From assembly GCA_900545755.1 (NCBI GenBank), contig URAG01000003.1:1-58021 (forward strand): 58,021 nucleotides of DNA, given 5' to 3'. The notes below the pieces were generated by a model that saw only the letters and a list, made by a program, of their open reading frames with translations, had not been told where the DNA came from and searched no databases. Below, in pieces: positions 34,890-58,021 of the stretch (position 1 is its first letter; each line of letters opens with the position of its first letter). Origin of the DNA: an uncultured Cloacibacillus sp. Lineage in GTDB: Bacteria > Synergistota > Synergistia > Synergistales > Synergistaceae. The position numbers were made by a program, and so were the translations under genes.

Positions 34890-34895
34890 TTTTCG

Positions 34896-35774: not shown

Positions 35775-36613
35775 GATTTTTTGTCCTTTCTTATAGCGCG
35801 GAAGACGAGGTTCGCACCCGCGGAGAGCGCGAGAAGCACGCCGCCCGCGGCGAACAGCGAATAGTATGCCGTGCCGCCGACGTCCGACGAAAGCACGAGG
35901 CCGATATGCGCCGTCAGCGTCCGTATCGCGTTCAGCGGCGAGGTCGGATACTGCACGGCGTTGCCCGCGAGCATCGTCGGAATCATCGTGTCGCCCGCCG
36001 CGCGTCCGAAGCCGAGCAGCGCCGCGCCCCAGAGCCATTCCTTACACGAGGGCAGCACGACGAAGACGAGGTGCTCCGCGCGCGAGAAGCCGAGCGACGC
36101 GGCTGTGAGGCCGCTTTCGCGCACGGCCTGCTCGACAGCGCCGTCCATGACGAGCACCATAGTCGGGGTTATCAATAAAGCCAGTATCAGCGTGGCGGTG
36201 AACCACGAAAGCCCCGAGCCGCCGAAGCCGTTGCGGACGATCGGGACGAGAAGAAATACCGAGGCGAAGCCGTAGACTACGGTCGGAATCGCCGTCATCA
36301 CGCGCAGCAGCGACAGAAGCAGCGCGCCGCCGCGCTTTCCGCCGAAGCCGTGGATGTAGCAGACGCAGCCGAACGATACGAGCCAGCCGAGCGCGAGCGA
36401 CGAGAGCGAGAGCGCCGCCGTCGCCGCCATGACGGGCAGGATGCCGAACTGCTTGCTCTCGGGATGCCAGACGGAGGTGAAGAGCCCGCGCCCGCCCATG
36501 AAGAAACCGTCGGCGGCGCAGACGATGATAAAGACGAAAACGCATGACAGCAGCGCCGTAACGTAGACGGCGGAGGCTTTCAGCAGAAACGGGGATCTGG
36601 AACGATTGTGCAT
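35771..36613 (-). CDS. pstC: Phosphate ABC importer permease PstC
   Basis: 280-residue permease with six helices, including FIIVCAADGFFMGG near the N-terminus, MTAIPTVVYGFASVFLLVP and the EAA-like loop AASLGFSRAEHLVFVVLPS. Together with PstA it forms the phosphate translocation path. It follows pstS after 55 bases containing a hairpin and overlaps pstA. Slightly shorter than most PstC proteins (about 300), mainly at the N-terminus. Confidence 0.9.
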   Translation of the reverse strand: MHNRSRSPFLLKASAVYVTALLSCVFVFIIVCAADGFFMGGRGLFTSVWHPESKQFGILPVMAATAALSLSSLALGWLVSFGCVCYIHGFGGKRGGALLLSLLRVMTAIPTVVYGFASVFLLVPIVRNGFGGSGLSWFTATLILALLITPTMVLVMDGAVEQAVRESGLTAASLGFSRAEHLVFVVLPSCKEWLWGAALLGFGRAAGDTMIPTMLAGNAVQYPTSPLNAIRTLTAHIGLVLSSDVGGTAYYSLFAAGGVLLALSAGANLVFRAIRKDKKS

Positions 36614-36636
36614 AGCATGCGGAAAGAAGAGGCGAA

Positions 36637-36654
36637 GCGCCGGGATTCCGGCGC
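36637..36654 (-). promoter_or_regulatory. Hairpin between pstS and pstC
   Basis: GCGCCGG (36637-36643), loop GATT, CCGGCGC (36648-36654). No long T run; likely limits read-through or protects the pstS message. Confidence 0.6.
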
Positions 36655-36668
36655 CCCGCCGGATTTCG

Positions 36669-37499
36669 TTACTTCTTCGGGATGGGGATATAGCCGCAGT
36701 CGGCGATAATCTCCGCGCCCTCGGGCGAGTAGATGTAGTCGATGAAGAGCGCCGTCAGCCCCTGCGGGTCGCCCTTCGTGTTCATAAATAGGTCGCGCAC
36801 GACCGTGTAGCTTCCGTTCGCGGCGTTCTCCTGCGTCGCGGTCATGCCCTCGAGCTTAGGAGCCTTCACGGATTCGTCGATGTGCCCGATGCCGACGTAG
36901 CCTATCGCGTTCGCATCCTTCGCAACGGCGGTCTTCATAGCGCCGTTCGAGTTCACGACGTTGGCCGAAGCCGCGACTTCGCCGCCCTTGATGGCCTTGT
37001 CGGTGAAGACCTCGCGCGTACCACTGCCGTCCTCGCGGACGTAGAGGTTTATCTTCGCGTCGGCCCCGCCGACTTCCTTCCAGTTCGTAATTTTGCCGGC
37101 GTAGATATCCGCGATCTGCGCGAAGGTCAGCTCGTTGACCGCGTTTGACGGATGAACGACTACCGCGACGCCGTCAATGGCGAACGGGAAGGATTTAAGC
37201 CCGTACTTCTTGATCTCTTCGGCTTTCAGAGGACGTCCGGTGTTCCCTATCTCGACGAGTCCTTCGCCGACCTGCTTCACTCCGACGCCCGAGCCGCCGC
37301 CCGCGACAGTAATGCGTATGTCGGGGTTAGCGGTCATTATGCGCTTCGCAGCCTCCTGCATTACGGGGATGTGCGCGGTACCTCCAGCGATGTCAACCTT
37401 ACCCTTCTGGCCTTTGAAGGCGTCGAGCGGGGCCGCCGCGGCCGCAGAAACGGCGAAGAGGCAGATCAGCGCCGCAAGGGCGAACTTCTTCATTCTCAT
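36669..37499 (-). CDS. pstS: Periplasmic phosphate-binding protein PstS
   Basis: 276 residues from the ATG at 37499, ten bases after AAGGAG, giving a clean signal peptide (MRMKKFALAALICLFAVSAA). Phosphate-binding segments are recognisable: GGGSGVGVKQVGEGLVEIGN (about residue 60), VHPSNAVNELTF, and REDGSGTREVF. This is the shorter class of PstS found in many anaerobes. First gene of the pst operon. Confidence 0.93.
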   Translation of the reverse strand: MRMKKFALAALICLFAVSAAAAAPLDAFKGQKGKVDIAGGTAHIPVMQEAAKRIMTANPDIRITVAGGGSGVGVKQVGEGLVEIGNTGRPLKAEEIKKYGLKSFPFAIDGVAVVVHPSNAVNELTFAQIADIYAGKITNWKEVGGADAKINLYVREDGSGTREVFTDKAIKGGEVAASANVVNSNGAMKTAVAKDANAIGYVGIGHIDESVKAPKLEGMTATQENAANGSYTVVRDLFMNTKGDPQGLTALFIDYIYSPEGAEIIADCGYIPIPKK

Positions 37500-37540
37500 G
37501 ACAACAGCACTCCTTTGATATAGATATATTTTTTCGCGCG

Positions 37541-37569
37541 GCGATATGCCGCATTGCGACAAATGTAAA
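37541..37569 (-). promoter_or_regulatory. Candidate pstS promoter
   Basis: On the minus strand TTTACA (37569-37564), 17 bases, TATCGC (37546-37541). A 9-bp inverted repeat GCGCGCGAA/TTCGCGCGC (37572-37590) lies just upstream. The remaining DNA to 38097 shows no gene and no Pho box I can recognise. The MATE promoter must lie in it. Confidence 0.4.
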
Positions 37570-38097
37570 CAGCGCGCGAAATTCGCGCGCGCGGCGGAAA
37601 TATGTGGCATGGGAGAAGTTATCGGAGCGGAGTGCCGGCTAAATCAGACGAAAACGGCGCGAAAAGACGACGCCCGCGTCCGCATAATGCATCCCGTGCA
37701 TTTTGCCGCCGCATGATCACGTCATCAATTCCACCGTCCTTCGCGACTGTTGCATAAACTTTACAATGTATAAATATATCACATCCGCGCCGCGAAAGCT
37801 TGCGCCTCCGTCAGTTTCGCGCGGACAAAGCAGATTTTTTAGTCGCGCGGACAAAAGACGGCTCGCGCGGAATTCGACGGGAGACACAGCGCTCGGAGGA
37901 AAACGAAAATTCCGCTCTCCGCAAAATCGGCGCGCCAGGCCCAAAAACAAAAAACTGCGCCGCCGTAAGGACGCTGCCGCGCAGAGCCTTCGCCCCGGAT
38001 GCGGGACGGGAGAGGAACATACGACGGATTCTCCATCCGCCGCGCGCTTCTTGCGCCGGCCGCCCTCATGTTATAGGATTTACCAGGTGATTATGGA

Positions 38098-39560: not shown

Positions 39561-40241
39561 TTAATTTCCCTGTACCAGCCTGCCGTGCTCCATTCGGAGC
39601 ACCGTGTCTCCGTATGAGGCGGCGTTCGGATCGTGGGTGCTGATCAGCACCGTAACGCCATTGTCGCGCGCCTTTTGCAGATATTCGAGTATTATCTTCG
39701 AGTTTTTCACGTCGAGGTCGCTCGTCGGTTCGTCTGCGATTATGAGCTTCGGGTTTCTGACGAAGGCGCGCGCTATCGCGACGCGCTTGCGCTCGCCGCC
39801 GGATAGCGAGGCGGGGCGCTCGTCCTCCATGCCGCCGAGGCCGAACTCTTCAAGCAGCGCGGAGGCGCGTCCGTAGGCCTCGCCGCACTCCTGCGCCGAA
39901 GCGCCGCCGAGGAAGCATGGCATACAGATGTTTTCCGCGATGGTGAAGTTGTTGAGCAGGTCGCAGCCCTGCATAACGTAGCCTATCTCCGGCCCACGCA
40001 TCGCAGCGAAACCGTCGGCGTCGAGCGCCGTCAGCTCCTTGTCCATGAAGGTCACGGTGCCTGAGTCGGGGCGGCACATGCCGGAGAGCAGGTGGAACAG
40101 CGTGCTTTTACCGCAGCCGGACTGACCCATGAGTACGGTGAAGGATTTCGCCTCAAGCGAGAGCGACACGCCGTCGACCGCCGCGAAGGTCTCGCCCCTG
40201 CGCTGGTATTTCTTTACGAGATTCGACGCTTGTAAAATCAT
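39561..40241 (-). CDS. MacB/LolD-type ABC transporter ATP-binding protein
   Basis: 226 residues from the ATG at 40241 (AGGAG upstream, ATGA overlap with the permease gene). Walker A GQSGCGKST (about 39-47), FHLLSGM, Q-loop GYVMQGCDLLNNFTIAEN, signature LSGGERKR, Walker B LIIADEPTSDLD and switch His in STHDPNAAS. Pairs with the FtsX-like permease. Such complexes act by mechanotransmission across the envelope, not as classic importers. Confidence 0.9.
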   Translation of the reverse strand: MILQASNLVKKYQRRGETFAAVDGVSLSLEAKSFTVLMGQSGCGKSTLFHLLSGMCRPDSGTVTFMDKELTALDADGFAAMRGPEIGYVMQGCDLLNNFTIAENICMPCFLGGASAQECGEAYGRASALLEEFGLGGMEDERPASLSGGERKRVAIARAFVRNPKLIIADEPTSDLDVKNSKIILEYLQKARDNGVTVLISTHDPNAASYGDTVLRMEHGRLVQGN

Positions 40242-41473
40242 GCTTCTTTCTCCTGTATCAGACGGATAGGTTCGCCGCGGCAGACCGCGAGGATAGCGCA
40301 GAAGGAGGCCGCGAGCCCCGCAGCGACGGAGATAAGCAGGCACTTCGCTCCGGTCGCGGCGTAGAAGCCGGCGGCGCTGATGAAGGCCGGGATGCCAGTG
40401 GCTATCTGTATCTGCTCTTTGAAGGCGAGCATCACGCCGCCCGCCGCCGCTATGCCGAGGAAGCCTCCGATGAGCCCTATCGCGAGCCCTTCGGCGAGAA
40501 TCACGCGGACGATGAAGCTCTTCGACGCGCCGAGCGTGAGCATGACGCCGAATTCAGGCCTGCGCTGGATTATCGTGACTGTGAAGATGCAGACGACGGC
40601 GAGCGCCGCGGTCAGCAGCAGCAGGACGTTGAGCACAAGGCTGAAAGCCGAGAAGCTCTCGACGGCGTCGGCGGCCTTGCTGACCATGCTGTTCGCCGTG
40701 TAGGCCCAGAGCGGGCTGTTCTCTATCGTATAATTTATCTTTCGCGCGACGGACATCGGGCTCACGCCGTCGGCGACGCGGATCATTATCGAGGATATGA
40801 CTGTCTCGGGGTCCATGTCGCCGAGGCGGTTTTCGCGCGCAATGTCGGTGCGCAGTATGTCGCGCGCCGTGCTGAAGTCTATGAAGGTGCAGTTATCGTA
40901 GCTCGTGTCCGTCCTTTCGAGCTTGCCGACGACCTTCTGCTCCCTGCCGAAGAATATCAGCGTGCTGCCGGGCTTCGCGTAGACGCCTCCGCCTACGACC
41001 ACCTCGCCCATGCCGACGCCGCGCTCGGAAAGTCCGTCTACCGAGCTTTTGAGCCACGGCTGGATGATGAAGTCCGTCTTGGAATCGTAGGCGATTATCT
41101 GGAGCGGGACGGAGCAGCACGAAGCGTCGAGCGTCGCGATGAAGAGCTGCGGCGACGCTTTCTCGACTCCCTCTATCTGCGCGACGCGGTCGAGCCACGA
41201 ACCGTCGAAATAGAAGCTGCAATGCTCGCCCGAGAAGAGCGACGACGAATACTCGGCGGCGAACTGCTTAGGCACGACGATGACGTCCGCGCCGAGGCGG
41301 TTGACCGTCTGCTCCACGCCGCGTTCGAGGCTCGCGAGCAGTATCGAACTCGCAAAGATCGAGGCCGCGAGGATGAAGCATAGCAGCTCCATCACCGCGG
41401 TGCGCATCCCCTGCCCGCTCAGGTTCGCCATCGCGATGGAGAACGGCCCGAGCTTTTTTCTTTTGTTTGACAT
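40238..41473 (-). CDS. MacB/FtsX-family ABC permease
   Basis: 411 residues: one N-terminal helix (about 25-46), a large extracytoplasmic domain (about 47-280) and three C-terminal helices (about 281-310, 330-355 and 375-400), the MacB/FtsX plan. EFGVMLTLGASKSFIVRVIL is the conserved FtsX segment after helix 2. The extracytoplasmic part includes a Cys pair (DASCCSVPLQ). Lies between the ATPase and a DUF4418 membrane protein, an arrangement seen in several anaerobes. Confidence 0.88.
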   Translation of the reverse strand: MSNKRKKLGPFSIAMANLSGQGMRTAVMELLCFILAASIFASSILLASLERGVEQTVNRLGADVIVVPKQFAAEYSSSLFSGEHCSFYFDGSWLDRVAQIEGVEKASPQLFIATLDASCCSVPLQIIAYDSKTDFIIQPWLKSSVDGLSERGVGMGEVVVGGGVYAKPGSTLIFFGREQKVVGKLERTDTSYDNCTFIDFSTARDILRTDIARENRLGDMDPETVISSIMIRVADGVSPMSVARKINYTIENSPLWAYTANSMVSKAADAVESFSAFSLVLNVLLLLTAALAVVCIFTVTIIQRRPEFGVMLTLGASKSFIVRVILAEGLAIGLIGGFLGIAAAGGVMLAFKEQIQIATGIPAFISAAGFYAATGAKCLLISVAAGLAASFCAILAVCRGEPIRLIQEKEA

Positions 41474-41483
41474 TCCGCCGCCT

Positions 41484-41906
41484 CTAGCGCGATTTCAGGC
41501 CGAAAACGAGCGACGCAGCCCCCGCCGCCGCGGCCAGCCCGCCGCAGAGCTTCGCCCACGCCGCGGTGTCGTGGCATGCCATCACCTTCGCGCATATTCC
41601 TATGCCGAGGCCCGAGTTCGACACCACGACTATTGCGAAAATCCCGGCGACGACGGCTATCGCGCCGCCGTAGGCGAGATTCTTCGTCAGCAGCATCATA
41701 ACGCCGTTGACGACGAGCAGCGCGCCGAGCAGTACGAGCGCCTGCCCGCTGTAAAAGCATTTCATGTGGACCTCAGCGCCGGTCGCCAGCTTCAGCATCC
41801 CAGTGCAGACGCCGGCCCAGCCGTAAACCGCGCCGATTAGCAGCGCGCCAGCCGCGACGACCGCCGCCGAGAGCAACACGCCAAGTTTCCCAAAATCCGA
41901 TTTCAT
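41484..41906 (-). CDS. DUF4418 family membrane protein
   Basis: 140 residues, four membrane helices (about 6-28, 54-75, 79-97 and 118-136). Cys, His and Met residues cluster at the helix ends: C34, HMKC (47-50), C105, CH (111-112) and C121. Function unknown for the family. The pattern could bind a metal or heme, or form disulfides. First gene of the trio with the FtsX-like permease and ATPase, ten bases before the former. Confidence 0.8.
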   Translation of the reverse strand: MKSDFGKLGVLLSAAVVAAGALLIGAVYGWAGVCTGMLKLATGAEVHMKCFYSGQALVLLGALLVVNGVMMLLTKNLAYGGAIAVVAGIFAIVVVSNSGLGIGICAKVMACHDTAAWAKLCGGLAAAAGAASLVFGLKSR

Positions 41907-42678: not shown

Positions 42679-43779
42679 ATGAAAAAGTTATTCGCACTTG
42701 TTCTGGCAGTTCTTGCGGCGGCCTTCGCCGCGCCGGTCTTCGCGGAGGACGTTCCAGTCATCCGCGCTAGCTACACGATGACGACGCATCAGCAGGCCTT
42801 CATGGTCGCTATGGCGGAGGGCGAAAAGCTCAAGGATAACGGAGTGTGGCTGAAGCCAGTCGTCCCGAAGGAGAAGTTCGACCTTTACGACAACGGCAAG
42901 AAGGTCGCCCGTCTCGAAGTCATCGTGACGAAGAGCGGCTCCGAGGCTACGACGCTCTTCGCGCAGGGACACCTCGACCTCACGACGAACTCCTTCCCCG
43001 CGATGCTCTCCGGCATCGACAGCGGCGCGAAGATCAAAGTCATCTCCCCGCTCCAGTCCGACGCCATCGCGATGGTTTCGCGCACGGACATCGACGTCAA
43101 GGGATGGGAAGCCTTCGAGAAGTACGTCAAGGATTCCAAGCGCCCCGTGACCGTCGGCTACCACTCGCCGACGAGCGCGCCGAAGATAGTCTTCGAGGCC
43201 GCCATGGCGCAGTCGAACCTCCGCGTGACGGGCGACGCCAACGCGACGAAGGAGCAGGCCGACATCGTAATGATGGACCTTAAAGGCATCCCGAACGTCA
43301 TCCCGGCACTCATAGCGAAGCAGGTCGAGTTCGCCGTTATTCCGGCCCCGACGCCTGAGGTCATCGAAGCGAAGGGGCAAGGCCACGTCGTCCTCCAGAT
43401 GAAGGAACTCGAGCCGAAGGGCGCTTGGGAAGACTTCCCATGCTGCTGCATAGCCGCGAGCGACAAGGCGATAGCCGAACAGCCCGAAGCGCTGCGCGCC
43501 TTCGTGAGGCTGATGGACCTGACGAGCCAGTGGTGCCTCGCCAATAAGGAAGCGGCCGCGCAGGCCACCGGCGACTGGCTCGGGATAGAGCCCACCGTCA
43601 TATCGAAGGCGGTCATGGGCCTTTCCACGACCGTCACTCCTACGTGGATGAAGAACGCCGCGCTTTATCCCGACATCCTCAACGAGCTCGGACAGCTCAC
43701 CGGCTCGCTGAAAGGTAAAAAGCTCGCCGACGTTCAGGACCTCGTATTCGATTTCCGTTTTACGGAAGTGGAGAAATAG
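42679..43779 (+). CDS. ABC importer solute-binding protein, NMT1/SsuA/TauA-like
   Basis: 366 residues from the ATG at 42679, with a signal peptide (MKKLFALVLAVLAAAFAAPV, then FAED). A periplasmic-binding fold of the nitrate/sulfonate class: GEKLKDNGVWLKPV, GHLDLTTNSFPAMLSGIDSG, VGYHSPTSAPKIVFEAAM and FAVIPAPTPEVIE. An unusual triple Cys occurs in DFPCCCIAASD. It starts a five-gene operon that ends with a double-cubane reductase pair, so its ligand is probably that enzyme's substrate or a precursor (inference). Confidence 0.88.
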   Translation: MKKLFALVLAVLAAAFAAPVFAEDVPVIRASYTMTTHQQAFMVAMAEGEKLKDNGVWLKPVVPKEKFDLYDNGKKVARLEVIVTKSGSEATTLFAQGHLDLTTNSFPAMLSGIDSGAKIKVISPLQSDAIAMVSRTDIDVKGWEAFEKYVKDSKRPVTVGYHSPTSAPKIVFEAAMAQSNLRVTGDANATKEQADIVMMDLKGIPNVIPALIAKQVEFAVIPAPTPEVIEAKGQGHVVLQMKELEPKGAWEDFPCCCIAASDKAIAEQPEALRAFVRLMDLTSQWCLANKEAAAQATGDWLGIEPTVISKAVMGLSTTVTPTWMKNAALYPDILNELGQLTGSLKGKKLADVQDLVFDFRFTEVEK

Positions 43780-43787
43780 CCATATCC

Positions 43788-43818
43788 CCGCCGCGCGGAA
43801 GCACCGCGCGGCGGTTTT
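43788..43818 (+). promoter_or_regulatory. Terminator-like hairpin between the binding-protein and permease genes
   Basis: Perfect 11-bp stem CCGCCGCGCGG/CCGCGCGGCGG, five-base loop, then TTTT. Partial termination here would raise binding protein over membrane components. Confidence 0.75.
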
Positions 43819-43830
43819 ACGGAGGGAACG

Positions 43831-44667
43831 ATGAAATTTCTTATTGACAGGATTTTGCTGCCGTGCGCCGCGCCTCTGCTCGTGCTGGTAATATGGGAGG
43901 TTATCGCGATAGAGCTCAAGAACGACGTCGTGCTCCCGACCGTCGGGCAGGTCTGGGTTCTCTTCCTTCACCCGAACGAGGACCTGCTGCGCCTCGGCTC
44001 GCTGCTACAAAACCTCGGCATGAGCTCCATCCGCGTCTTCTGCGGGTACATGGCCGGGCTTGTGCTCGCTCTGCCGCTCGGCATACTTATGGGACATTAC
44101 AGGAAGGTCAACCGCTTTATGACTCCGCTTGTGGAGATTCTGCGCCCGATGCCGCCGCTCGCTTGGATTCCACTGATCCTCGCCTGGTTCGGCGTCGCTA
44201 GCTTCGCGACGATGCTCGGCATCGAAGAGGGCGAATGGTACGTCTTTTTCAACAATATCAAATTCTCGATGCTAATCATCATTTTCATCGGGGCCTTCTT
44301 CCCGATATTGCTCAATACAGTCTACGGCGTTTCGAGCGTGCGCTCGACTCTCATAGATTCGGCGCGCGTCCTCGGCGCGTCGGAGCGCGATATTTTTATG
44401 AAAATCCTGCTTCCCGCGGCGGCCCCGTCGATAGTTACGGGCATGAGGCTCGGCCTCGGCGTCGCGTGGATGTGCCTCGTCGCGGCGGAAATGATGCCGG
44501 GAAGCATCTCCGGTATAGGCTACGTCATAACGCACGCCTACACCGTCGCACGCACCGATATAGTTATAGCGGGCATGGTCAGCATAGGCGCGGTGGGCCT
44601 CGCGCTCGACGCGGCCTTCCGGTATTTCGAGGCGAAGTGCTTCGCCTGGCAGAGGTTGTCGAGATGA
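43831..44667 (+). CDS. ABC importer permease, SsuC/TauC-like
   Basis: 278 residues, six helices, BPD_transp_1 domain with an EAA loop (DSARVLGASERDIFMKILLP, about residues 170-189). GGAGGGA precedes the ATG. Compared with typical SsuC it has an insertion near 120-150 (IEEGEWYVFFNNIKFSM). The stop overlaps the ATPase start (ATGA). It forms the membrane path for the ligand delivered by the 42679 protein. Confidence 0.9.
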   Translation: MKFLIDRILLPCAAPLLVLVIWEVIAIELKNDVVLPTVGQVWVLFLHPNEDLLRLGSLLQNLGMSSIRVFCGYMAGLVLALPLGILMGHYRKVNRFMTPLVEILRPMPPLAWIPLILAWFGVASFATMLGIEEGEWYVFFNNIKFSMLIIIFIGAFFPILLNTVYGVSSVRSTLIDSARVLGASERDIFMKILLPAAAPSIVTGMRLGLGVAWMCLVAAEMMPGSISGIGYVITHAYTVARTDIVIAGMVSIGAVGLALDAAFRYFEAKCFAWQRLSR

Positions 44668-45443
44668 CGGCGCTTATCGAAACCAGCAATCTGCGCAAGG
44701 AATTCGTCCTCGACGGCGGCGGCCGCCTCGAAGCGATAGCCGGCGCGTCGATCGCGATAAACGACAAGGAGTTCGTCTGCCTGCTCGGCCCCTCCGGCTG
44801 CGGCAAGTCCACGTGGCTGCGCATAGTCGCTGGGCTCGAAAGCGCGAGCTCAGGCGATGTACTATATAAGGGCGCGCCGGTCACGGGCCCGGGCAAGGAG
44901 CGCGGCATGGTATTCCAGGAATACTCTCTGCTGCCGTGGCGCACCGTCGCTGACAACGTCTCTCTCGGCCCAGAATTCGCGGGCATGGATGCAAAAAAGC
45001 GCCGCGAAATAGCGATGGACTACCTCGCGCGCGTCGGCCTTGAAAAGTTCGCCGAGGCGAAGCCGCACGAGCTTTCGGGCGGAATGCGCCAGCGCGCCGC
45101 GATAGCCCGGGCGCTCGCGAACAACCCCGAAGTGCTGCTGATGGACGAGCCCTTCGGCGCGCTCGACGCGCACACGCGCGTCCTGCTCCAGCGCGAGCTG
45201 CTGAAAATCTGGGAGCAGGACAGGAAGACCGTCGTCTTCGTCACGCACAGCGTCGACGAAGCGCTTTACCTCGCGGACAGGATAGTCGTCATGACGGCGC
45301 ATCCGGGCCGCGTCCTTGAAGAAATAGACGTCCCGTTCGAGCGTCCGCGCAGCCGCGCGACGAAGGGCTACGGCGAGATGGCCGAGCGGATACTCGAACT
45401 TCTGGAACAGAATGAAAAAAATAGAGGAGGAGCGGAACTATGA
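44664..45443 (+). CDS. ABC importer ATP-binding protein, SsuB/TauB-like
   Basis: 259 residues from the ATG at 44664 (longer open frame upstream lies inside the permease). Walker A GPSGCGKST (about 41-49), Q-loop GMVFQEYSLLPWRTV, signature LSGGMRQR, Walker B VLLMDEPFGALD and switch His in VTHSVDEAL. Completes the importer. Its stop overlaps the start of the double-cubane protein by ATGA, so importer and enzyme are translationally coupled. Confidence 0.92.
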   Translation: MTALIETSNLRKEFVLDGGGRLEAIAGASIAINDKEFVCLLGPSGCGKSTWLRIVAGLESASSGDVLYKGAPVTGPGKERGMVFQEYSLLPWRTVADNVSLGPEFAGMDAKKRREIAMDYLARVGLEKFAEAKPHELSGGMRQRAAIARALANNPEVLLMDEPFGALDAHTRVLLQRELLKIWEQDRKTVVFVTHSVDEALYLADRIVVMTAHPGRVLEEIDVPFERPRSRATKGYGEMAERILELLEQNEKNRGGAEL

Positions 45444-46600
45444 ACAACGCCGCTAAAGTAGATGCAATTCTTGACGAAATAAGGGAGATCGTACACAACG
45501 GCCCTGTCCGCGTAAAAGAAATAAGCGAAGCTGGAGTGCCAGTCGTCGGCACATACTGCACCTTCACGCCGTGGGAGCTGGTGCGCGCCGCGGGCGGCAT
45601 ATCCGTCTCGCTTTGCAGCACGAGCGACAAGCCGATAGCCGCGGCGGAAAAACACCTGCCGCGCAACCTATGCCCGCTTATCAAGTCGAGCTACGGCTTC
45701 GCGCTGACGGACACCTGCCCGTACTTCCATTTCTGCGACATCGTAATAGGCGAGACGACCTGCGACGGCAAGAAAAAGATGTACGAACTGCTCAACGAGC
45801 TGCGTCCGACGCACGTCATGCAGCTGCCGCAGGACCCGAAGCACGAGATGAGCCGCACGCTCTGGAAGCACGAGATACTCAGGCTCAAAAAAGTCCTCGA
45901 AGAACGCTTCGGCGTCGAGATAACGGACGAGAAGATAAGAGAGGCTATCACGCTGCGCAACAAAATAAACGAAGCGGCGCTGCGCTTCTACGACACGGCG
46001 GCGCTGCCCGTCCCGATGGTCAGCGGCAAGGAGATAATGCTGATCTCCGACTTCATCAAACTCAACTTCGAATACGAGAAGACCGCCGACAAGCTCAACG
46101 AGCTCGCCGACGCGATACTCGAAGCCTACGCCGCGGGACAGTGCCGCAAAGACATAGCCGCGCACCGCATATTCATAACAGGCTGCCCGATGGGCAAATC
46201 GCTCGAAAAGGTCGTCGACGCCATAGAATCGCCGGAAAGCGGCTCCGTCGTCGTCGGCTTCGAAAACTGCGGCAACCTCAAATCCATGCACTACAAGGTG
46301 CGCGAGGACATAGACCCGATCGACGCGCTCACCGAGAAATATCTTTCGATACCCTGCTCCGTAATGTCGCCCAACGGCGAGCGCCTAGGGCTGCTGCGCG
46401 AATACGTCAAGAAATACCACGCAGACGCGGTCGTAGACGTCATACTCCAGGCATGCCACACCTACAACGTCGAAACCTACTCCGTAAAGCAGTTCCTCGC
46501 CGACGAGGGCGTGCCATACATGTCCGTAGAAACGGACTATTCGCAGGGCGACGTGGGACAGCTCTCCACGCGCTTCGGAGCCTTCGCGGAGATGCTCTAA
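45440..46600 (+). CDS. yjiM: Double-cubane cluster protein (YjiM/DCCP type, 2-hydroxyacyl-CoA dehydratase superfamily)
   Basis: 386 residues, close in length and motifs to E. coli YjiM (about 383) and the characterised double-cubane [8Fe-9S] protein family. Shared blocks include VGTYCTF (C40), SLCSTSD (C59), PRNLCPLIKSSYGF (C78), CPYF (C93), GETTCDGKKKMYE (C108), ITGCP (C249), ENC (C277), ILQACHTY (C339) and ETDYSxxDVGQLSTR. The best studied member reduces small molecules such as acetylene, azide and hydrazine in an ATP-dependent way; the natural substrate is unknown. A CoA-ester dehydratase would normally need a second, different subunit, which is absent here. Following gene: its activator. 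Confidence 0.9.
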   Translation: MNNAAKVDAILDEIREIVHNGPVRVKEISEAGVPVVGTYCTFTPWELVRAAGGISVSLCSTSDKPIAAAEKHLPRNLCPLIKSSYGFALTDTCPYFHFCDIVIGETTCDGKKKMYELLNELRPTHVMQLPQDPKHEMSRTLWKHEILRLKKVLEERFGVEITDEKIREAITLRNKINEAALRFYDTAALPVPMVSGKEIMLISDFIKLNFEYEKTADKLNELADAILEAYAAGQCRKDIAAHRIFITGCPMGKSLEKVVDAIESPESGSVVVGFENCGNLKSMHYKVREDIDPIDALTEKYLSIPCSVMSPNGERLGLLREYVKKYHADAVVDVILQACHTYNVETYSVKQFLADEGVPYMSVETDYSQGDVGQLSTRFGAFAEML

Positions 46601-47358
46601 TGGCCAACATCGGAGTGGACATCGGCTCAACGGCGACGAAGTGCGTCCTCTGGGACGGCTCGCGCTTCGTCTATTACATCACGCCTACGGGCTGGGCTCC
46701 CGCCGAAAGCGCTGAAAAAGCCGTGCGAATGGTCTGCCGCCGCGGGCACATAATGAAGCGCGAAGACGTACACATCACGGTCACGGGCTACGGGCGCAAT
46801 ATATTTGAGGCCGACCGCCGCGTCACAGAGATAACCTGCCACGCCGCGGGAGCCCACCGCCTCGCGCCCGAGGCGACAACAGTGCTCGACATCGGCGGGC
46901 AAGACTCGAAGGTAATAAAAATCGACGAAAACGGCAAGGTCCTCGACTTTCTGATGAACGACAAGTGCGCCGCCGGCACTGGCCGCTTCCTCCAGAACAT
47001 GGCGGTCCACCTCGGCTGCAAGCTGGCTGACTTCTGCAATATCCCCGATGGCACGGAGCTACAGCCGATCAACAACATGTGCACAGTCTTCGCCGAGTCG
47101 GAGGTCATCGGCCTGCTCGCCAAAGGCGCGGACAAATACTCGATCTGCCTCGGACTGCTAGACTCCGTCGCGCAGCGGGCGGCAAACCTGCTCTCCCGCG
47201 TCTCCGACGGCGGCGACATCTGCTTCACCGGCGGCTGCGCGCAGAACGGCCTGCTCGCCGGCCTGATAGAACAAAAAACAGGCCGCCGCGTGATAACACC
47301 CGAAAAAGCCCAGTTCGCCGGCGCTCTCGGCGCCGCGGTGATAGAGGCGGGGAAGTAG
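46600..47358 (+). CDS. yjiL: ATP-dependent activator/reductase of the double-cubane protein (YjiL/HgdC type)
   Basis: 252 residues of the ASKHA fold (BcrAD/BadFG family). GVDIGSTATKCVL (5-17) is the phosphate loop, VLDIGGQDSK (95-104) the second one, and two cysteines, C123 in NDKCAAGTGRF and C161 in NNMCTVFAESE, are placed to hold one [4Fe-4S] cluster at the homodimer interface. It injects a low-potential electron into the partner protein with ATP hydrolysis. ATG overlaps the previous stop (TAATG). Size and motifs match E. coli YjiL. Confidence 0.93.
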   Translation: MANIGVDIGSTATKCVLWDGSRFVYYITPTGWAPAESAEKAVRMVCRRGHIMKREDVHITVTGYGRNIFEADRRVTEITCHAAGAHRLAPEATTVLDIGGQDSKVIKIDENGKVLDFLMNDKCAAGTGRFLQNMAVHLGCKLADFCNIPDGTELQPINNMCTVFAESEVIGLLAKGADKYSICLGLLDSVAQRAANLLSRVSDGGDICFTGGCAQNGLLAGLIEQKTGRRVITPEKAQFAGALGAAVIEAGK

Positions 47359-47866: not shown

Positions 47867-47905
47867 CTTATGCCGTTTGAGACAAAAAAGAAAGCAGGGC
47901 CTCCC

Positions 47906-48535
47906 ATGGCAGAAGACTGCCACAGGCACGACATAAGCGACGAGTTTTGGGTATTACTGGAACCAGCCTCCACCCGTCAGAAATGGGACGCCGGGCGGCA
48001 ACGCGCGCTACGACAATTCCCTTATCAACGCTGTGTTTTGTGGATTCTGCATACCGGCGCGCCGTGGCGTGATCTGCCACCGGATTACGGCAGCAGGAAC
48101 AACTTCAACAAGCGTTTTCGCCGGTGGCATGACATGGCCGTTTGGGGGAAATTGCTTGAGGCTCTGATAAATTCTCCTGATTACGAATTACTCATGATAG
48201 ACGCAAGCCATATAAAAGGACATCCCCACGCAAGCGGGGCGGCAGGCGGCAACTTAGGATATGGAGCGCGTAAAGGGTAGCTCAACAGCAAGGTGCATCT
48301 TGCCATGGATATGTATTGTATGTGTCGATCAGATTATTTTATTTGTCACAGCTGGTACCATTGCTGATGGTGCGCAGGCTTGCATGCAGGTCAATATAGA
48401 AGAGACGGACGCTGAATAGAATTTTTGCTTACAAACACATGCTATGGCAGTCTTAACTCCTCCGCGCAGAAACAGTAGAAAACCAGCGCGACTGCGATAG
48501 GAATGCATATTGAGGCATTTTGTAGAAAACACCTC
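47906..48535 (+). pseudogene. Remnant of an IS5-family transposase
   Basis: The first frame (from the ATG at 47906 to a stop at 48280) matches the N-terminal part of IS5/IS427-type transposases: DISDEFWVLLEP, VLWILHTGAPWRDLP, FNKRFRRWHD, YELLMIDASHIKGHPHA. Beyond the stop, homology continues piecewise: LNSKVHLAMDM, then in another frame VTAGTIADGAQA, then LTPPRRNSRKPARLR and ILRHFVENT up to about 48535. At least two frameshifts and deletions make it non-functional. It abuts the IS256 remnant. Confidence 0.8.
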
Positions 48536-48548
48536 CTCCGTACTCTGT

Positions 48549-49280
48549 TCAGCCTTTTATCCTGAATGCAAACGGTATCCTTACGCGAATTACGCCCGTG
48601 CTATTGAACTTCCAGCCCTTGACGGCGCACAGCGCCGAGTCGTCTAATCGCGCGTGACCGCTTGAGCGTTCGAGTCCCGCTGAGGTTACTGATCCGTTTT
48701 CCACGCGGGCTATAACCACGGCTGTTCCCTCTTCGCGACGCTTGCGGGAGAAAAGCGGATATTCCGGAGTAACTTTCTTCAACACTTCGAGACCGCCCAC
48801 GTCAACTATGCTGTAACCGTAACCGCCGCCGATGCCTTCGCCTTTGCCCCCGGCGCCCTTCACAGCGCATAATGAAGCAGCGGCTTCTTCCAAGCCGTTT
48901 TCCACCGTTGTTGTTTCTTTTGGAGCCTCTGCCTTCACAGGTTCATTGACAGGCTTTGGCGTTTCTTTAGGCTTATCCATGCGAGTGGCTTTTACCGGCT
49001 TCTTCGTATCCTGCGTTTGCGGCTTCGCTTGGCTCTTCTTCGGCTGCGTCGCGGACTGCGCCGTCGTTTTTTGTTTTAGCCCGCCGCCGTTTCCTGCACT
49101 TCCGCCGTCCGTCCCGCGCTGGCCAGGAAGCGTGACCAGGCGCACGGACATGGCCGGCTCTTTCTCTATTACACGCTGCACACGCTGCGGGATAAGCGAT
49201 ATTGCAGCGACTATCGCTATGTGTACGCAGATGCTTAGCACTATGGCCGAACGCCAACGTGAGCGGACCTCTTTAGTCAT
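48549..49280 (-). CDS. tonB: TonB family energy transducer
   Basis: 243 residues: short cytoplasmic N-terminus, one helix (about 12-32), a Lys/Pro/Thr-rich periplasmic spacer (about 70-125) and a C-terminal TonB domain (about 165-243) with VTPEYPLFSRKRREEGTAVV and a Ser-Gly-His segment SSGHARLDDSAL. It carries proton-motive energy from ExbB-ExbD to outer-membrane receptors. Start overlaps the exbD stop (ATGA). Last gene of the corrinoid operon, so it is probably dedicated to the barrel at 56447. Confidence 0.92.
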   Translation of the reverse strand: MTKEVRSRWRSAIVLSICVHIAIVAAISLIPQRVQRVIEKEPAMSVRLVTLPGQRGTDGGSAGNGGGLKQKTTAQSATQPKKSQAKPQTQDTKKPVKATRMDKPKETPKPVNEPVKAEAPKETTTVENGLEEAAASLCAVKGAGGKGEGIGGGYGYSIVDVGGLEVLKKVTPEYPLFSRKRREEGTAVVIARVENGSVTSAGLERSSGHARLDDSALCAVKGWKFNSTGVIRVRIPFAFRIKG

Positions 49281-49666
49281 TCGGCATTTCCCCCTGCGAG
49301 CAGAAGACCCGCGGACGTTACTCCCTCGCCGCGCAACAGCGAGAGGACTGAGGCGACTGTACCATATGGAACACCTTCGTCGCCGGCGATCAGTATTTCG
49401 CGCCCTTTGTTCGCTTCCGCGGCGTAGACGAGCTCGCTCCTGCTCATTTCGCGTCCATTCCAGAAAAGTCTGCCATCAGCCATTACTGTCAGTACCACCG
49501 CGTCGTGCGCATCGAAAGAACTTCCTTCACCCCGCGGAAGCTTTACGTCCAGCTCGCCTTGTACGAACGAGGCCATGAGGACAAAAAATATTATTAGCAT
49601 GAAGAGAACGTCAATAAGCGGAGTGATATCTATCTCCGCCGCGCCTCTAGTTTTTCGCTGGCGCAT
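49277..49666 (-). CDS. exbD: Biopolymer transport protein ExbD
   Basis: 129 residues from the ATG at 49666 (an in-frame TTG at 49699 is possible). MRQRKTRGAAEIDITPLIDV precedes one helix (LFMLIIFFVLMASF) carrying the conserved membrane aspartate of the ExbD/TolR motif, then a periplasmic domain (VVLTVMADGRLFWNG). It overlaps the exbB end by 20 bases and tonB by four. Confidence 0.93.
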   Translation of the reverse strand: MRQRKTRGAAEIDITPLIDVLFMLIIFFVLMASFVQGELDVKLPRGEGSSFDAHDAVVLTVMADGRLFWNGREMSRSELVYAAEANKGREILIAGDEGVPYGTVASVLSLLRGEGVTSAGLLLAGGNAE

Positions 49667-50264
49667 TTCCGCAGTACTTTCTATGAAGGCGAAGGACAAA
49701 ATCCGCGCCGCGTTCTAGCTTTTCTTCTTCGTTGTCGATGCGCGAGTTGAGAAGTCCGTTTACGAATATCGTCGGTATTGCCACCGTAAGACCGGCAACA
49801 GTAGTGTAGAGCGCTTTCCAGATCCCCCCCGTTACCATTTCCGCGCTTATCTGGCCTCCCATATGCAGCGAGCCAAACATTTCCACCATTCCAAGAACGG
49901 TGCCGAGAAGGCCAAGGAGCGGCGCGATTTTGCCTACCATTTCCATTACGAACAAATGTTTTTCCCAACGATATATTTCACGGCGGATTCGTTCTTCCGT
50001 AAGGGACTTCATTTCCTCTCCGTCCGCGTCCCACTGAGAGAGTGCATCGGCAAACAACCGTGCGAGCGAGCTTTCCGTCTCGGAGAAACAACGGCTGTAA
50101 TCTCCGGACGTAGCGGCATCCGCAAGTTCGCCTTCAAGCTTAGTCGGATTTCCTGAGGCCTTTCGGAAAAACATCAGCCTCTCTGCTGCAACAGCAAAAG
50201 CGGCCAGAGAAAAAGCCGCGATTAACCACATTATGCTGCCGCCCTCGTTCATATAATCAAGCAT
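49647..50264 (-). CDS. exbB: MotA/TolQ/ExbB proton channel protein
   Basis: 205 residues, three helices (about 10-30, 110-130 and 148-175) with IAPLLGLLGTVLGMVEMF and WKALYTTVAGLTVAIPTI, the proton-channel core of ExbB. Together with ExbD it drives TonB. The ATG overlaps the stop of the upstream TIM-barrel gene by eight bases, and the stop overlaps exbD. Confidence 0.94.
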   Translation of the reverse strand: MLDYMNEGGSIMWLIAAFSLAAFAVAAERLMFFRKASGNPTKLEGELADAATSGDYSRCFSETESSLARLFADALSQWDADGEEMKSLTEERIRREIYRWEKHLFVMEMVGKIAPLLGLLGTVLGMVEMFGSLHMGGQISAEMVTGGIWKALYTTVAGLTVAIPTIFVNGLLNSRIDNEEEKLERGADFVLRLHRKYCGNAPAKN

Positions 50265-51066
50265 TTATATCCCCCTTTGCCCTTTTCTGGGCGAATTTCT
50301 TTAAAAATTCTATTGAACGAGCGTAGTCGTCCTCGAATACTTCAAGAGTCATAACGCGCGTTTTCCCGTCAGACGCAAGTATCGCAAAAATCCTTTCGAG
50401 AAGCTTTTCATCGAAATATGTCATGTCCTTGTGGTCGGCACCTTCGGGAGTTACTCCGTGAATGTGTACAGCACGGGTATATTCAAGAAAAAGCTTAAGC
50501 TGTTCTTCAACCGGATGTCCGTAGCGTACAAGGTGGCCGATATCGGCACAGACGCATATTTTATGTTCCATGACTATCGGAAGAATGAGCTCGAAATTGT
50601 AGTCCAGAGTCTCGGCGCATATCCAGTTCCGTTCTCGTGCGGCGGAGGCTATGCGTTCGACCGACTTCGACGTCAGCTCGAGCCATTTTTCCATGTTGGC
50701 GCTCGGGCGGTCGCCGAACTGCTCGCCCCCCAGGTGCATCACCCATGCGTAAGGTTCTATATCGTCGAACAGCTCTAGTATGCGCAGGCATGAATCCTCA
50801 CACCGGACGCGCTCGTTCGGATCATCGGACAAACATACGTCGTCCGGGAAATGAACGACGCAGCTCATTCCAAGTTCACGTCGAAGTTCTGCAAGTTCTC
50901 TAACTTCTTCTTTCGTCGGAATGTTCGAGCCGTATTTGTTGTCGAAGAGGACGAACTGCATGTCGTCCACGTCGCGCGACAGCGCGCGCATATTTTTTGC
51001 GAATCCGCCAGGAATTACCCACGACGTGCCGCCGAGCCTAATGCCTTGGAATCTCAGCCTTGACAT
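50257..51066 (-). CDS. TIM-barrel protein of the xylose isomerase/AP endonuclease 2 fold; candidate cobamide-remodelling enzyme CbiR
   Basis: 269 residues, no signal peptide. Strand ends with metal-type residues are regularly spaced: VVHFPDD, VMHLGGEQFGD, CAETLDYNFE, CADIGH, VHIHGVTPEG and MTLEVFEDD, as in AP-endonuclase-2-like barrels. The general fold covers sugar-phosphate isomerases. However, CbiR, a cobamide-remodelling hydrolase known from Akkermansia, belongs to this superfamily, and the gene sits between btuC and exbB, inside a corrinoid-uptake operon with almost no gaps. CbiR is therefore my preferred, unproven assignment. Confidence 0.6.
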   Translation of the reverse strand: MSRLRFQGIRLGGTSWVIPGGFAKNMRALSRDVDDMQFVLFDNKYGSNIPTKEEVRELAELRRELGMSCVVHFPDDVCLSDDPNERVRCEDSCLRILELFDDIEPYAWVMHLGGEQFGDRPSANMEKWLELTSKSVERIASAARERNWICAETLDYNFELILPIVMEHKICVCADIGHLVRYGHPVEEQLKLFLEYTRAVHIHGVTPEGADHKDMTYFDEKLLERIFAILASDGKTRVMTLEVFEDDYARSIEFLKKFAQKRAKGDINA

Positions 51067-52044
51067 CTATTCTCCTCCTTTTATTACAAGCCAGACGAAG
51101 AATAGCGAGCCGAGAAGGGAGGTCAGTATCCCGACCGGGAGCTCGGTCGGAGACCAGAATGTGCGTGCCGCAGCATCGCAGAGCGTGAGAAAGAGTCCAC
51201 CGGCGAATGCACAGACCATGGAGAGTTCTCTGTGTTCCGCGTATCCGGAAAGCCTGCGGCAGATGTGAGGGCACATGAGGCCGACAAATCCTATCGGGCC
51301 ACAGATTGCTACATTCATGCCCACCGCAACAGACACGAATGCACAGAGAAAGCGCCGGAGAAACTTGACCGAGATGCCGCGACTTGCTGCAAGTTCTTCT
51401 CCGCATATGAGCAGGTCGAGCTGCGGTCCTGCCACCCATCCGGTAACCGCTATGAACAGGAAGCCGGGCAGTGAAGCCAGAGCAGACGCGAAGCCTACCG
51501 TTTCAAGGCCGCCCATAGCCCAGCGCATCATTCGGAATGAGTCCGTATAGCTGCCTGTGTACTGGATTATCATATTGAGGCTTGCAAAGAGAAAGTTCAG
51601 CGCAATCCCCGCAAGAAGCAGCGAAGGTGCAGAGAATCCGCTGCGCAAGCTGCCGGCCGCGTAGAGCACTATTATCGCGGCAAAGGAGCCGATAAAGGCC
51701 GCACAAGCGCTTCCGCTGATTATCCCCAGTAACGATGACGCTATGCCGAGGCGTATATATATCACGGCTCCAAGAGCGGCTCCGGAGGATACTCCAAGCA
51801 TGTCGGGCGATGCAAGCGAGTTGCTGAACAATGCCTGAAAGATGAGGCCGCAGACGGATAAGGTCGCACCCGTGAGCCACGCGAGGAGCGCACGGGGCAT
51901 TCTTATGTTCCACAGTATCTGCGAGGCAGGAGAGCCGTCGCGGATGAGCGCATCAAGGCCTATCTGCGACGCTCCGATGAACGGAGCACATAACAGCGAC
52001 AGAAGCGACATAAGTATGAGAGCGCGGCAAAAATTTCCCTTCAT
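51067..52044 (-). CDS. btuC: FecCD/BtuC-family ABC permease
   Basis: 325 residues, about ten helices. Family motifs: NIRMPRALLAWLTGATLSVC (about 48-67), LASPDMLGVSSGAALGA, IGFVGLMCPHICR and LPVGILTSLLGSLFFVWLV. Imports cobalamin/corrinoid or siderophore type ligands across the inner membrane; the neighbouring BtuF-like protein favours corrinoids. ATGA overlap with btuD and one base from the next gene. Confidence 0.9.
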   Translation of the reverse strand: MKGNFCRALILMSLLSLLCAPFIGASQIGLDALIRDGSPASQILWNIRMPRALLAWLTGATLSVCGLIFQALFSNSLASPDMLGVSSGAALGAVIYIRLGIASSLLGIISGSACAAFIGSFAAIIVLYAAGSLRSGFSAPSLLLAGIALNFLFASLNMIIQYTGSYTDSFRMMRWAMGGLETVGFASALASLPGFLFIAVTGWVAGPQLDLLICGEELAASRGISVKFLRRFLCAFVSVAVGMNVAICGPIGFVGLMCPHICRRLSGYAEHRELSMVCAFAGGLFLTLCDAAARTFWSPTELPVGILTSLLGSLFFVWLVIKGGE

Positions 52045-52838
52045 CCGACAAGTCCTTTCGGTACGACGTATGGGGTTTTAAGTCCGGCGCGGCTGAAATA
52101 TTCAAATTCTGTTCCGAATATTTCCCGCATCAAGTAGTCAGAGAAAAGCTCCTTTGGCTGCCCCTGCCATACAGTACACCCGCCTTTGACAGCGAGCAGT
52201 TCGTCCGCTCCGTGCATGGCAAGGTTTACGTCGTGGGTCACCATTACTATGGTTTTGCCTTCGTCCTTGTTGAGGTTTTCTATGAGCGACATCGTTTCAG
52301 CTTGGTGGGCGTAGTCAAGGTAGCTAGTCGGTTCGTCGAGAAAGAATATGTCCGTCTCCTGAGCTATCGCGGCGGCTATCATGGCGCGCTGTCGTTCGCC
52401 CCCGGAGAGGGAGGACAGCCGGCGTTCCGCGAGGTACTCCACCCCTGCGGTTTTGAGCGCCGACTGCACCGCTGCGAGTTCTTCGCCCGTTTCGCCACCT
52501 AACAACGAACGCAGCGCAAAGCGCGACATAGAGACGAACTGGCGCACCGTGTATGGAGTTTCGGCGCTAACGCTCTGAGGCACCCATGCGATGCGGCGCG
52601 CGACATCACGCTGTTTCATCGAAGACAGCCGCTCGCCGTTTATAAGCACGGTCCCACTCCAACCGCGAAGTATCCCTCCAGCGCATTTGAGCAACGTACT
52701 TTTGCCAGCTCCGTTGGGACCTATGACCGCAAGGAAGCGTCCTTTCCTTATTGAGAAGGAAGCTCCGCTCAGTATCTGTTCCCCTCCGATGTTCACGGAC
52801 AGTTCTTTCACTTCGACGGCTTTATCAGTGTTTACCAT
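52041..52838 (-). CDS. btuD: BtuD-type ABC ATPase for corrinoid (or siderophore) import
   Basis: 265 residues from the ATG at 52838, which overlaps the end of btuF by seven bases; a longer frame upstream lies within btuF. Walker A GPNGAGKST (about 38-46), WVPQSVSAETPYTV Q-loop, signature LSGGERQR, Walker B IFFLDEPTSYLD, VTHD switch. Typical FecE/BtuD ATPase with an IGGEQILSGASFSIRKG start. Confidence 0.92.
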   Translation of the reverse strand: MVNTDKAVEVKELSVNIGGEQILSGASFSIRKGRFLAVIGPNGAGKSTLLKCAGGILRGWSGTVLINGERLSSMKQRDVARRIAWVPQSVSAETPYTVRQFVSMSRFALRSLLGGETGEELAAVQSALKTAGVEYLAERRLSSLSGGERQRAMIAAAIAQETDIFFLDEPTSYLDYAHQAETMSLIENLNKDEGKTIVMVTHDVNLAMHGADELLAVKGGCTVWQGQPKELFSDYLMREIFGTEFEYFSRAGLKTPYVVPKGLVG

Positions 52839-53731
52839 TGTTCTTCCGGGTGTATCGCTGCTGCGAAGGCTTTGAGTATTTCGTGGATCCTCGGCCCAGG
52901 ACGGAGGAATACGGTACCACGTAGTATCGTTATATGGCCTTCGCTGACAGCCTCTATCTGTGGCACACTTTTCCACTGTTCCACAAGGCGCTCTTCGTAG
53001 AACACGAGTTCATTGTCTATATTACCAGGAGCGTGATAGTAGACGCTGTCGCCAACGAGGTCGATTATCACCTCTGGCGCGAGCGTAATCAGCCCTTCCG
53101 CGAATACGCGCGGGTAGGCCGCTTCTGCGTCTTTGAGTACGTTTTGCCCGCCCGCGAGCGTTATTAGCTCATCATAAAAGGTTTTGCCGCCGGCGGCGTA
53201 GAAAACTGATATCCTCGGTTCGCTGATTTCGCGTGAAACGCATAAAAGGACGCGCTTCTTCGGAAACCTCGAGGCTTTTTCGGCTATTTCTGCAACAGAC
53301 GCTTCAATTTCAGATATACACCGTTTCGCGAGCTCCTCTTTGAAGCACGCCCTACCGATTGTTAATATAGACTGATATATATCTTTAAGCCGTCCTTGCT
53401 TGGCTATCACATATGGCAAATTGAGGCGCGAGAGTTTTGAGGCCAGCTCTTTGTGAATATCCTGAAGGACAATCAAGTCTGCGTTTGTTGAAAGCAGATA
53501 TTCGAGGGAAATGTCTGTAAATCCGCCGATTTTAGGCTTTCTGCGAGCTTCAGGTGGGTAGTCGCAGAAATCAGTAATGCCGATGATGTTCGCTTCCTGG
53601 CCAAGCATATACAAAATCTCGGTTCCAACCGGACTCAGAGAGACGATTCTGCGAGGAGAAGCGGCAGCCGGCACAGTTGCACATACAAGGAACAACGATA
53701 AAAGGAAGAAAGTTCTGACTAATTTTCGCAA
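52832..53731 (-). CDS. btuF: Periplasmic corrinoid-binding protein BtuF
   Basis: 299 residues from a TTG at 53731 with GGAGG seven bases upstream; this start gives a proper signal peptide (MRKLVRTFFLLSLFLVCATV, then PAAASP). Fe-B12 periplasmic-binding fold: RRIVSLSPVGTEILYMLG, ITDFCDYPPEARRKPKIGGF (BtuF has a similar DYPP segment), then a long helix and VFYAAGGKTFYDELITLAGG. Corrinoid is likely, heme or siderophore possible. First gene after the terminator of the surface-protein gene. Confidence 0.87.
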   Translation of the reverse strand: MRKLVRTFFLLSLFLVCATVPAAASPRRIVSLSPVGTEILYMLGQEANIIGITDFCDYPPEARRKPKIGGFTDISLEYLLSTNADLIVLQDIHKELASKLSRLNLPYVIAKQGRLKDIYQSILTIGRACFKEELAKRCISEIEASVAEIAEKASRFPKKRVLLCVSREISEPRISVFYAAGGKTFYDELITLAGGQNVLKDAEAAYPRVFAEGLITLAPEVIIDLVGDSVYYHAPGNIDNELVFYEERLVEQWKSVPQIEAVSEGHITILRGTVFLRPGPRIHEILKAFAAAIHPEEQW

Positions 53732-53779
53732 ATATAGATCCTCCAAGAAAGTTGCTGTGGCGCGAGCTAGGAAATTCTT

Positions 53780-53821
53780 TTAAAAAGGCCGTCCGAGTGC
53801 ATATTCGCTTGCCGGACGGCC
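53780..53821 (-). terminator. Terminator between the Synerg-CTERM gene and btuF
   Basis: Stem GGCCGTCCG (53787-53795) / CGGACGGCC (53813-53821), followed on the minus strand by TTTTT. Only about 50 bases separate it from the btuF start, so the downstream operon either depends on read-through or has a promoter overlapping this element. Confidence 0.9.
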
Positions 53822-53848
53822 CACATTACGCCATTTACGGCTGTAAAT

Positions 53849-57970: not shown

Positions 57971-58021
57971 AGTAAAAGCCCTCCAAGTTGACACTACACA
58001 GTCATGGTTCGAAATGGCTCC

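Follow-up and report, generated by a model that had tools for sequence, protein, structure and literature searches.

The 58,021-nucleotide stretch of an uncultured Cloacibacillus sp. analysed here (contig URAG01000003.1; hereafter the window) carries five consecutive plus-strand genes at positions 42679-47358. Its open reading frames (ORFs) encode, in order, a substrate-binding protein (SBP), an ATP-binding cassette (ABC) permease, an ABC ATPase, a double-cubane cluster protein (DCCP) and an activase. By its sequence, the SBP falls into a distinct subfamily marked by an invariant histidine and an invariant Cys-Cys pair, and importer genes of this subfamily recur next to DCCP genes in two phyla. 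Tentatively, we read the operon as an import-and-reduce module for a thiophilic ligand, most likely a selenium ligand, which would be reduced by the DCCP.

A preliminary description of this DNA had proposed a complete ABC importer coupled by overlapping codons to a double-cubane protein and its activator. Searches with Pfam and NCBIfam profiles and their curated cut-offs bore this out. The SBP gene (42679..43779, 366 aa; NMT1/PF13379 fold) stands ahead of the genes for the permease (43831..44667, 278 aa; BPD_transp_1, 94.7 bits), the ATPase (44664..45443, 259 aa; ABC_tran, 110.7 bits), the DCCP (45440..46600, 386 aa; HGD-D, 368 bits) and the activase or DCCP reductase (46600..47358, 252 aa; BadF/BcrA ATPase fold; BcrAD_BadFG, 188.4 bits). 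The last four genes overlap at their stop and start codons: permease and ATPase share ATGA (44664-44667), ATPase and DCCP a second ATGA (45440-45443), and DCCP and activase TAATG (46598-46602). The gap of 51 bases between the SBP and permease genes contains an 11-bp GC-rich hairpin followed by TTTT (43788..43814, plus strand; -28 kcal/mol, z -3.1), possibly an attenuator or partial terminator favouring SBP expression.

Judged by its family scores, the reductase is a true DCCP and not a 2-hydroxyacyl-CoA dehydratase. The protein encoded at 45440 scored 491.5 bits against the NCBIfam double_cubane model NF040772 (cut-off 350). Against solved chains it scored 235.9 bits with the DCCP 6eno/7yyl, compared with 63.8 bits for the HadC-type subunit 3o3m_B, and 48.3 and 47.4 bits for 9g87_B and 8s02_B, taken for the dehydratase and benzoyl-CoA reductase comparison. 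The assignment was decided by these family and solved-chain scores rather than by a joint tree. A HadBC-type 2-hydroxyacyl-CoA dehydratase was also considered and rejected: the HadC model gave 89.8 bits (cut-off 700), and such an enzyme needs two different HGD-D subunits, whereas the operon has a single HGD-D gene. Cysteines 59, 78, 93, 108, 277, 306 and 339 were kept in 95/95 DCCP rows compared, and Cys40 in the 94/94 rows ungapped at this position. For the DCCP, an [8Fe-9S] cluster and an ATP-dependent reductase activity are predicted. The activase scored 233 bits against TIGR00241 (CoA_E_activ; cut-off 125.4). A paper of 2025 called the biological function of DCCP unknown, and reported that the enzyme reduces acetylene, hydrazine and azide, with unclear physiological relevance (PMC11971306).

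The importer had first been described as of the nitrate/sulfonate type, which holds for its fold and fails for its subfamily. The SBP matched NMT1_2 (PF13379) with 89.7 bits, above the gathering cut-off of 24.7, but the sulfonate model TIGR01728 gave 49.8 bits, far under its cut-off of 163.5. Over 94% of its length it shares 90% identity with a protein named for Cloacibacillus sp. An23, which points to a probable Cloacibacillus-like Synergistota source. Foldseek matched its structure model (pLDDT 92.9) to 3un6, SsuA, TauA, NrtA and CmpA; the top match was 3un6 (E 1.9e-16), titled 'with Zinc bound'. Type II binding proteins abound in the Foldseek and VIA-align lists, from which the ligand is not readable.

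The residues that set this subfamily apart are highly conserved. His37 (codon 42787..42789, plus strand), Pro254, Cys255 and Cys256 (cysteine codons 43441..43446, plus strand) are invariant in 44 aligned SBP rows, the window included, and His162 is kept in 43 of them. His37 and both cysteines also remain invariant in an 11-row alignment that includes two SaoX proteins. Of 106 database homologues, 101 contain a tryptophan followed after two to four residues by PCC; the remaining five are short sequences of 227-292 aa. Profile alignment places PCC on the PEK of NrtA that contains Lys269 (chain E 1.6e-4; best stretch 0.0036) and on YCC of 3un6; PCC also aligns with ACC or VCC of the SaoX proteins. 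NrtA numbering is the chain index plus 29, an offset derived from the alignment that fits Gly240 and Lys269 together. In NrtA, Gly240 and Lys269 are nitrate ligands (PMC13204499), and K269 and H196 have been named for nitrate binding (PMC8786288). From this alignment, rather than from distances in the model, we infer that Cys255-Cys256 and His37 sit in the cleft where NrtA holds nitrate. A dithiol replacing the anion-binding lysine would lead one to expect a thiophilic ligand, and we consider that the SBP probably binds one.

Two other readings of the binding protein were weighed on this evidence. It could belong to an ordinary sulfonate, taurine or nitrate-like importer sharing the operon with DCCP by chance, as the fold matches to SsuA, TauA, NrtA and CmpA and the weak TIGR01728 match would allow; the distance of that match from its cut-off, the Cys-Cys pair at the place of the anion-binding lysine in all but the short homologues, and the recurrent link to DCCP described below make this very unlikely. 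Alternatively, the SBP could bind a metal ion or chelate (such as zinc) for metal supply, the DCCP neighbourhood reflecting co-regulation. In favour of this, 3un6 carries CC opposite Cys255-Cys256 (chain E 3.7e-4; stretch 0.089); one of its His residues also pairs with His37, in a part of the alignment that is not significant by itself. His37, His162 and the two cysteines could together make up a metal site. However, zinc in 3un6 is taken here from the title, and among fold relatives the ligands named in titles are sulfonates, nitrate, bicarbonate, PQQ or thiamin-type molecules. Metal supply would also leave the association with DCCP and with the selenium-use marker SelD unexplained, and we regard it as distinctly unlikely.

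The link between this importer and DCCP was then followed across genomes. "Cassette" here means the SBP-permease-ATPase importer genes of the SBP subfamily. Searching with alignment A1 at E <= 1e-40, the subfamily was found in 19/185 Synergistota genomes and in 17/398 genomes of another phylum (hereafter the second phylum), to which the Marinisporobacter metagenome-assembled genome G008 belongs. DCCP lies in the same gene cluster as the SBP subfamily in 13 of these 36 genomes, from both phyla (G135, G148, G051, G134, G007, G008, G418, G303, G267 with a partial gene, G453, G292, G580 and G322), or in 11/34 without G007 and G008, which were first found through DCCP. The count of 13 is a lower bound, because several of the remaining contigs break off inside the cassette or shortly beyond it (e.g. 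L114, L124, L125, L128 and L160). Seen from the DCCP side, the cassette adjoins DCCP in 3 of the best 80 DCCP loci (L007, L012 and L063).

Gene order was compared in 43 cassette loci (the window, L007, L012, L063, L110-L129 and L151-L169). The five-gene order proposed for tracing in other genomes is not unique to the window: association with DCCP is common (33/36 genomes, see below), but the exact order SBP-permease-ATPase-DCCP-activase is rare, occurring in 4/43 loci (the window, L112, L115 and L169). Other loci show SBP-permease-ATPase-DCCP (L007, L012 and L151), DCCP-activase-SBP-permease-ATPase (L116, L154 and L156, the last partial; L157, with the ATPase gene further on), a divergent arrangement (L162), or SBP-permease, a methyltransferase/B12 fusion gene and DCCP (L164 and L165). 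DCCP was the commonest non-transporter neighbour family (15 loci), followed by an activase cluster (6 loci). When linkage to the cassette was mapped on a DCCP tree of 95 rows, 15 of them linked, 9 changes were required, against a shuffled mean of 14.1; well-supported branches force 7 or more of the 9. The tree came from a quick search and has long branches, and the 15 rows represent 14 loci (L165 twice, L156 absent). By this tree, the linkage was made or lost repeatedly. Because the combination recurs and the family scores favour DCCP over dehydratase, neither a gene order confined to this genome nor a kinship of the 45440 protein with true dehydratase subunits was found. Two subfamily SBP genes occur in L114 (G124) and L167 (G589), either side by side ahead of a single transporter or on both sides of it.

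Presence of the subfamily also predicts presence of DCCP. With DCCP scored at E <= 1e-85 and SelD counted over its cut-off, DCCP was found in 17/19 subfamily-positive and 62/166 negative Synergistota genomes (Fisher p = 1.3e-5), and in 16/17 positive and 101/381 negative genomes of the second phylum (p = 1.8e-8), or 33/36 against 163/547 in both phyla together; the Fisher tests ignore kinship, and genome completeness was not given. By linkage in two phyla and these two p values, with kinship ignored, the importer-DCCP combination goes beyond chance. SelD is present in 35/36 subfamily-positive genomes: in 18/19 positive and 105/166 negative Synergistota (p = 0.004), and in 17/17 positive second-phylum genomes against 36/63 sampled negatives (p = 0.0004). 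DCCP and SelD are themselves associated (71/79 vs 52/106, p = 2.4e-9).

A further reading is that importer and DCCP were simply co-inherited from a selenium or anaerobe gene pool, the DCCP not acting on the imported ligand. DCCP does have other partners, namely a Pst-like importer (L002) and the methyltransferase/corrinoid fusion (L164 and L165), and DCCP loci of Enterobacteriaceae have the activase and no relative of this importer. However, even when only SelD-positive Synergistota are counted, presence of the subfamily predicts that of DCCP (16/18 vs 55/105, p = 0.004), and the genes of the window operon overlap from stop to start. Co-inheritance alone is accordingly quite unlikely in our judgement, and we lean slightly towards a DCCP that acts on the SBP ligand or its immediate product.

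Genes of selenium metabolism also occur near the cassette. In one genome, along L200/L012, selD is followed by selA and selB, with an amino-acid carrier gene on the opposite strand between selD and selA; after selB come a two-component pair, an ORF that was not scanned, tRNA-Sec and finally SBP-permease-ATPase-DCCP. SelB and YedE were found in L151, YedE in L165, YedF in L113, and YedF with a cysteine-desulfurase-family protein (under the SclA cut-off) in L157; L007 has a partial gene of that same family, and L118 and L162 carry GrdB-type genes. A selenium-related gene was present in 8/43 cassette loci (621 kb), 8/80 DCCP loci (1238 kb) and 1/19 regions taken elsewhere from those genomes (341 kb). 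These local counts were not taken as proof. In Slackia, STRING associates 2-hydroxyglutaryl-CoA dehydratase subunits and an activase with YedE, YedF, LysR-like and DUF3343 selenium genes (PMC5322559). Altogether, its association with selenium use and with DCCP suggests that the importer takes up a selenium species, which would be reduced inside the cell. The preliminary description had left open an undescribed nutrient or electron-acceptor pathway; the context points instead to selenium and soft-element chemistry.

A second line of evidence comes from the selenocysteine-assisted organometal (SAO) system. Among NCBIfam models the permease came closest to SaoP (152.1 bits, cut-off 295) and the ATPase to SaoA (246.5 bits, cut-off 360). 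The window SBP had no match to the SaoX or SaoB models at E 0.001, and SaoT, E, C, X, L and B, with the L063 proteins as tblastn queries, gave no match over threshold in window positions 32001-57000. The possibility that the window operon is itself an SAO operon was rejected on these scores and on the lack of such matches nearby. The cysteine of the SaoX CDP motif aligns, as read by eye, with Pro222 of the window SBP and hence with Gly240 of NrtA; this cysteine is taken to be the selenocysteine position of the 'UxP' motif listed for SAO (PMC13188914).

DCCP was found to be a frequent companion of SAO genes. In L063 a single run holds SaoT-E-C-X-L-B-P-A, then DCCP and then the cassette; its SaoP ORF is short and scored 285.7 bits, just under the cut-off of 295. 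SaoX occurs in 8/398 second-phylum genomes, and DCCP in 8/8 of these against 109/390 others (p = 5e-5). DCCP lies within the SAO operon or next to it in 5/8 SaoX loci (L192-L196). Of the other three, L198 and L199 sit on short contigs, and L197 has no DCCP within 16 kb. L035 and L063 also pair DCCP with SAO, both having been found through DCCP. Such membership or neighbourhood in predicted SAO operons (L192-L196, L035 and L063) may matter for SAO function. One SaoX-positive genome of the 8, G372, had no SelD match.

These results call for an alternative in which an organometal or organometalloid ligand (e.g. alkylated mercury, arsenic or tellurium) is imported and then cleaved or reduced by DCCP, the operon being a reduced SAO-like system without a MerB-like lyase and efflux pump. 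The His/Cys-Cys motif common to the SBP and SaoX, the nearness of permease and ATPase to SaoP and SaoA, the position of DCCP in or beside SAO operons and the single run of L063 all speak for it. Against these stand the negative results for SaoT, E, C, X, L and B around the operon and for the SaoX and SaoB models on the SBP, and SelD in 35/36 subfamily-positive genomes, which fits selenium better; moreover, SAO function is itself a prediction. We hold this alternative to be unlikely, though it is the strongest of those considered.

In the selenium reading, the SBP would capture a thiophilic small molecule, most likely an inorganic or organic selenium species, through Cys255-Cys256 and His37, and the permease and ATPase would carry it into the cell. 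The ATP-driven activase would charge the DCCP, which would then reduce or reductively cleave the imported ligand; in organisms that use selenium, SelD would receive the product as selenide. That the SBP ligand is a selenium species is conceivable, at somewhat less than even chances in our estimate. According to two papers, of 2024 and 2022, a dedicated transporter for selenium, or a high-affinity system for its transport, has yet to be identified (PMC11097638 and PMC9312934). The bolder proposal that this would be the first dedicated high-affinity importer of selenium compounds, with a vicinal-dithiol pocket and a DCCP partner that frees selenide reductively or cleaves C-Se or C-metalloid bonds, is rather doubtful at present. 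This soluble binding protein, with a recognizable Cys-Cys motif and genetic links to both DCCP and selenium use, makes the questions of DCCP function and of selenium transport testable.

Several observations weigh against the proposed module. Most cassettes are not clustered with DCCP; G142 and G143, closely related by permease identity (84-85%), carry cassette and DCCP more than 1 Mb apart, and G039, G045 and G273 have the cassette without a DCCP match. G148, which has the gene order of the window, showed no SelD over the cut-off, SelD is common in background genomes, and the co-occurrence tests take no account of kinship. Cassette loci with selenium genes are a minority, and even this count favours cassette loci, because all queries except SelD were first seen there; no selenium query gene matched in window positions 32001-57000. 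The alignment of the SBP with NrtA is weak in sequence. Finally, the SAO likeness and the zinc in the title of 3un6 would also suit an organometal(loid) or metal ligand.

Other features of the window and of the related loci were recorded. In L002 (2613-7951), DCCP-activase comes 63 bases after a Pst-type importer whose PstS shares 72% identity with that of the window, where Pst-like genes (34128-37610) lie on the other strand about 5 kb from the operon. A similar PstS-PstC pair adjoins the cassette in L119 (106-1682). Elsewhere, the genes after the cassette in L117 (5097-7035) encode a sensor kinase, which carries a PocR ligand-sensing domain, and a response regulator, a MetQ-like cluster (methionine ABC binding protein) occurs in L127, L155 and L163 (only L127 was scanned), and a DUF1847 protein recurs near the cassette in L127, L152 and L166 (only L152 was scanned). 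On the minus strand of the window, a DUF4418 protein, an FtsX-like permease and an ABC ATPase stand in a row (39561-41906). Just downstream of the operon lies a partial IS4/5-type transposase gene (DUF4096; 47870-48280), followed at 48549-57994 by TonB, FecCD, Peripla_BP_2 and a TonB-dependent receptor barrel, with ExbD/ExbB-like ORFs recognized by eye; by its domains this is a predicted metallophore or corrinoid uptake set. G+C varies from 47 to 64% in 2-kb steps over the 58 kb. An Rfam scan of the window gave zero matches at gathering scores, and promoter-like sites (3, against a shuffled mean of 2.2) were near the shuffled level, permitting no promoter conclusion.

Each part of the operon is of a known kind. 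The open-licence literature searched, as far as those sources were covered, does not describe the importer-DCCP coupling, the SBP subfamily with its dithiol or the neighbourhood of DCCP and SAO genes. The SBP has its fold in common with NrtA, CmpA, SsuA and TauA, but identity to them is 12-15% and its cysteine aligns with the anion-binding Lys269 of NrtA. The S. aureus ABC ligand-binding component 3un6, the best fold match, shares the aligned CC at 12% identity. SaoX is likewise an NMT1-type SBP with His and Cys-Cys, and the SAO system has a related permease and ATPase and often an adjoining DCCP; unlike it, the window operon lacks SaoT/E/C/X/L/B matches nearby, its components score under the Sao cut-offs, and its SBP has Pro222 at the cysteine position of CDP. 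In L164 (5515-7149) and L165 (10957-12441), a gene that joins a URO-D (MtaA-like) methyltransferase to a B12-binding corrinoid domain lies between SBP-permease and DCCP (L164 was scanned). They resemble in this the type 1 mlp clusters of Kountz and Balskus, many of which include a dicubane protein among genes provisionally tied to selenium (PMC10418091). The type 1 mlp passages of that paper do not describe an importer of this kind, and, unlike in those clusters, no such methyltransferase matched in window positions 32001-57000. The known DCCP and its reductase (6eno and 7yyl, from Carboxydothermus hydrogenoformans according to PMC7306483) belong to the same family, with an adjacent activase gene and the eight cysteines; unlike that protein, the window DCCP shares its operon with a dedicated ABC importer.

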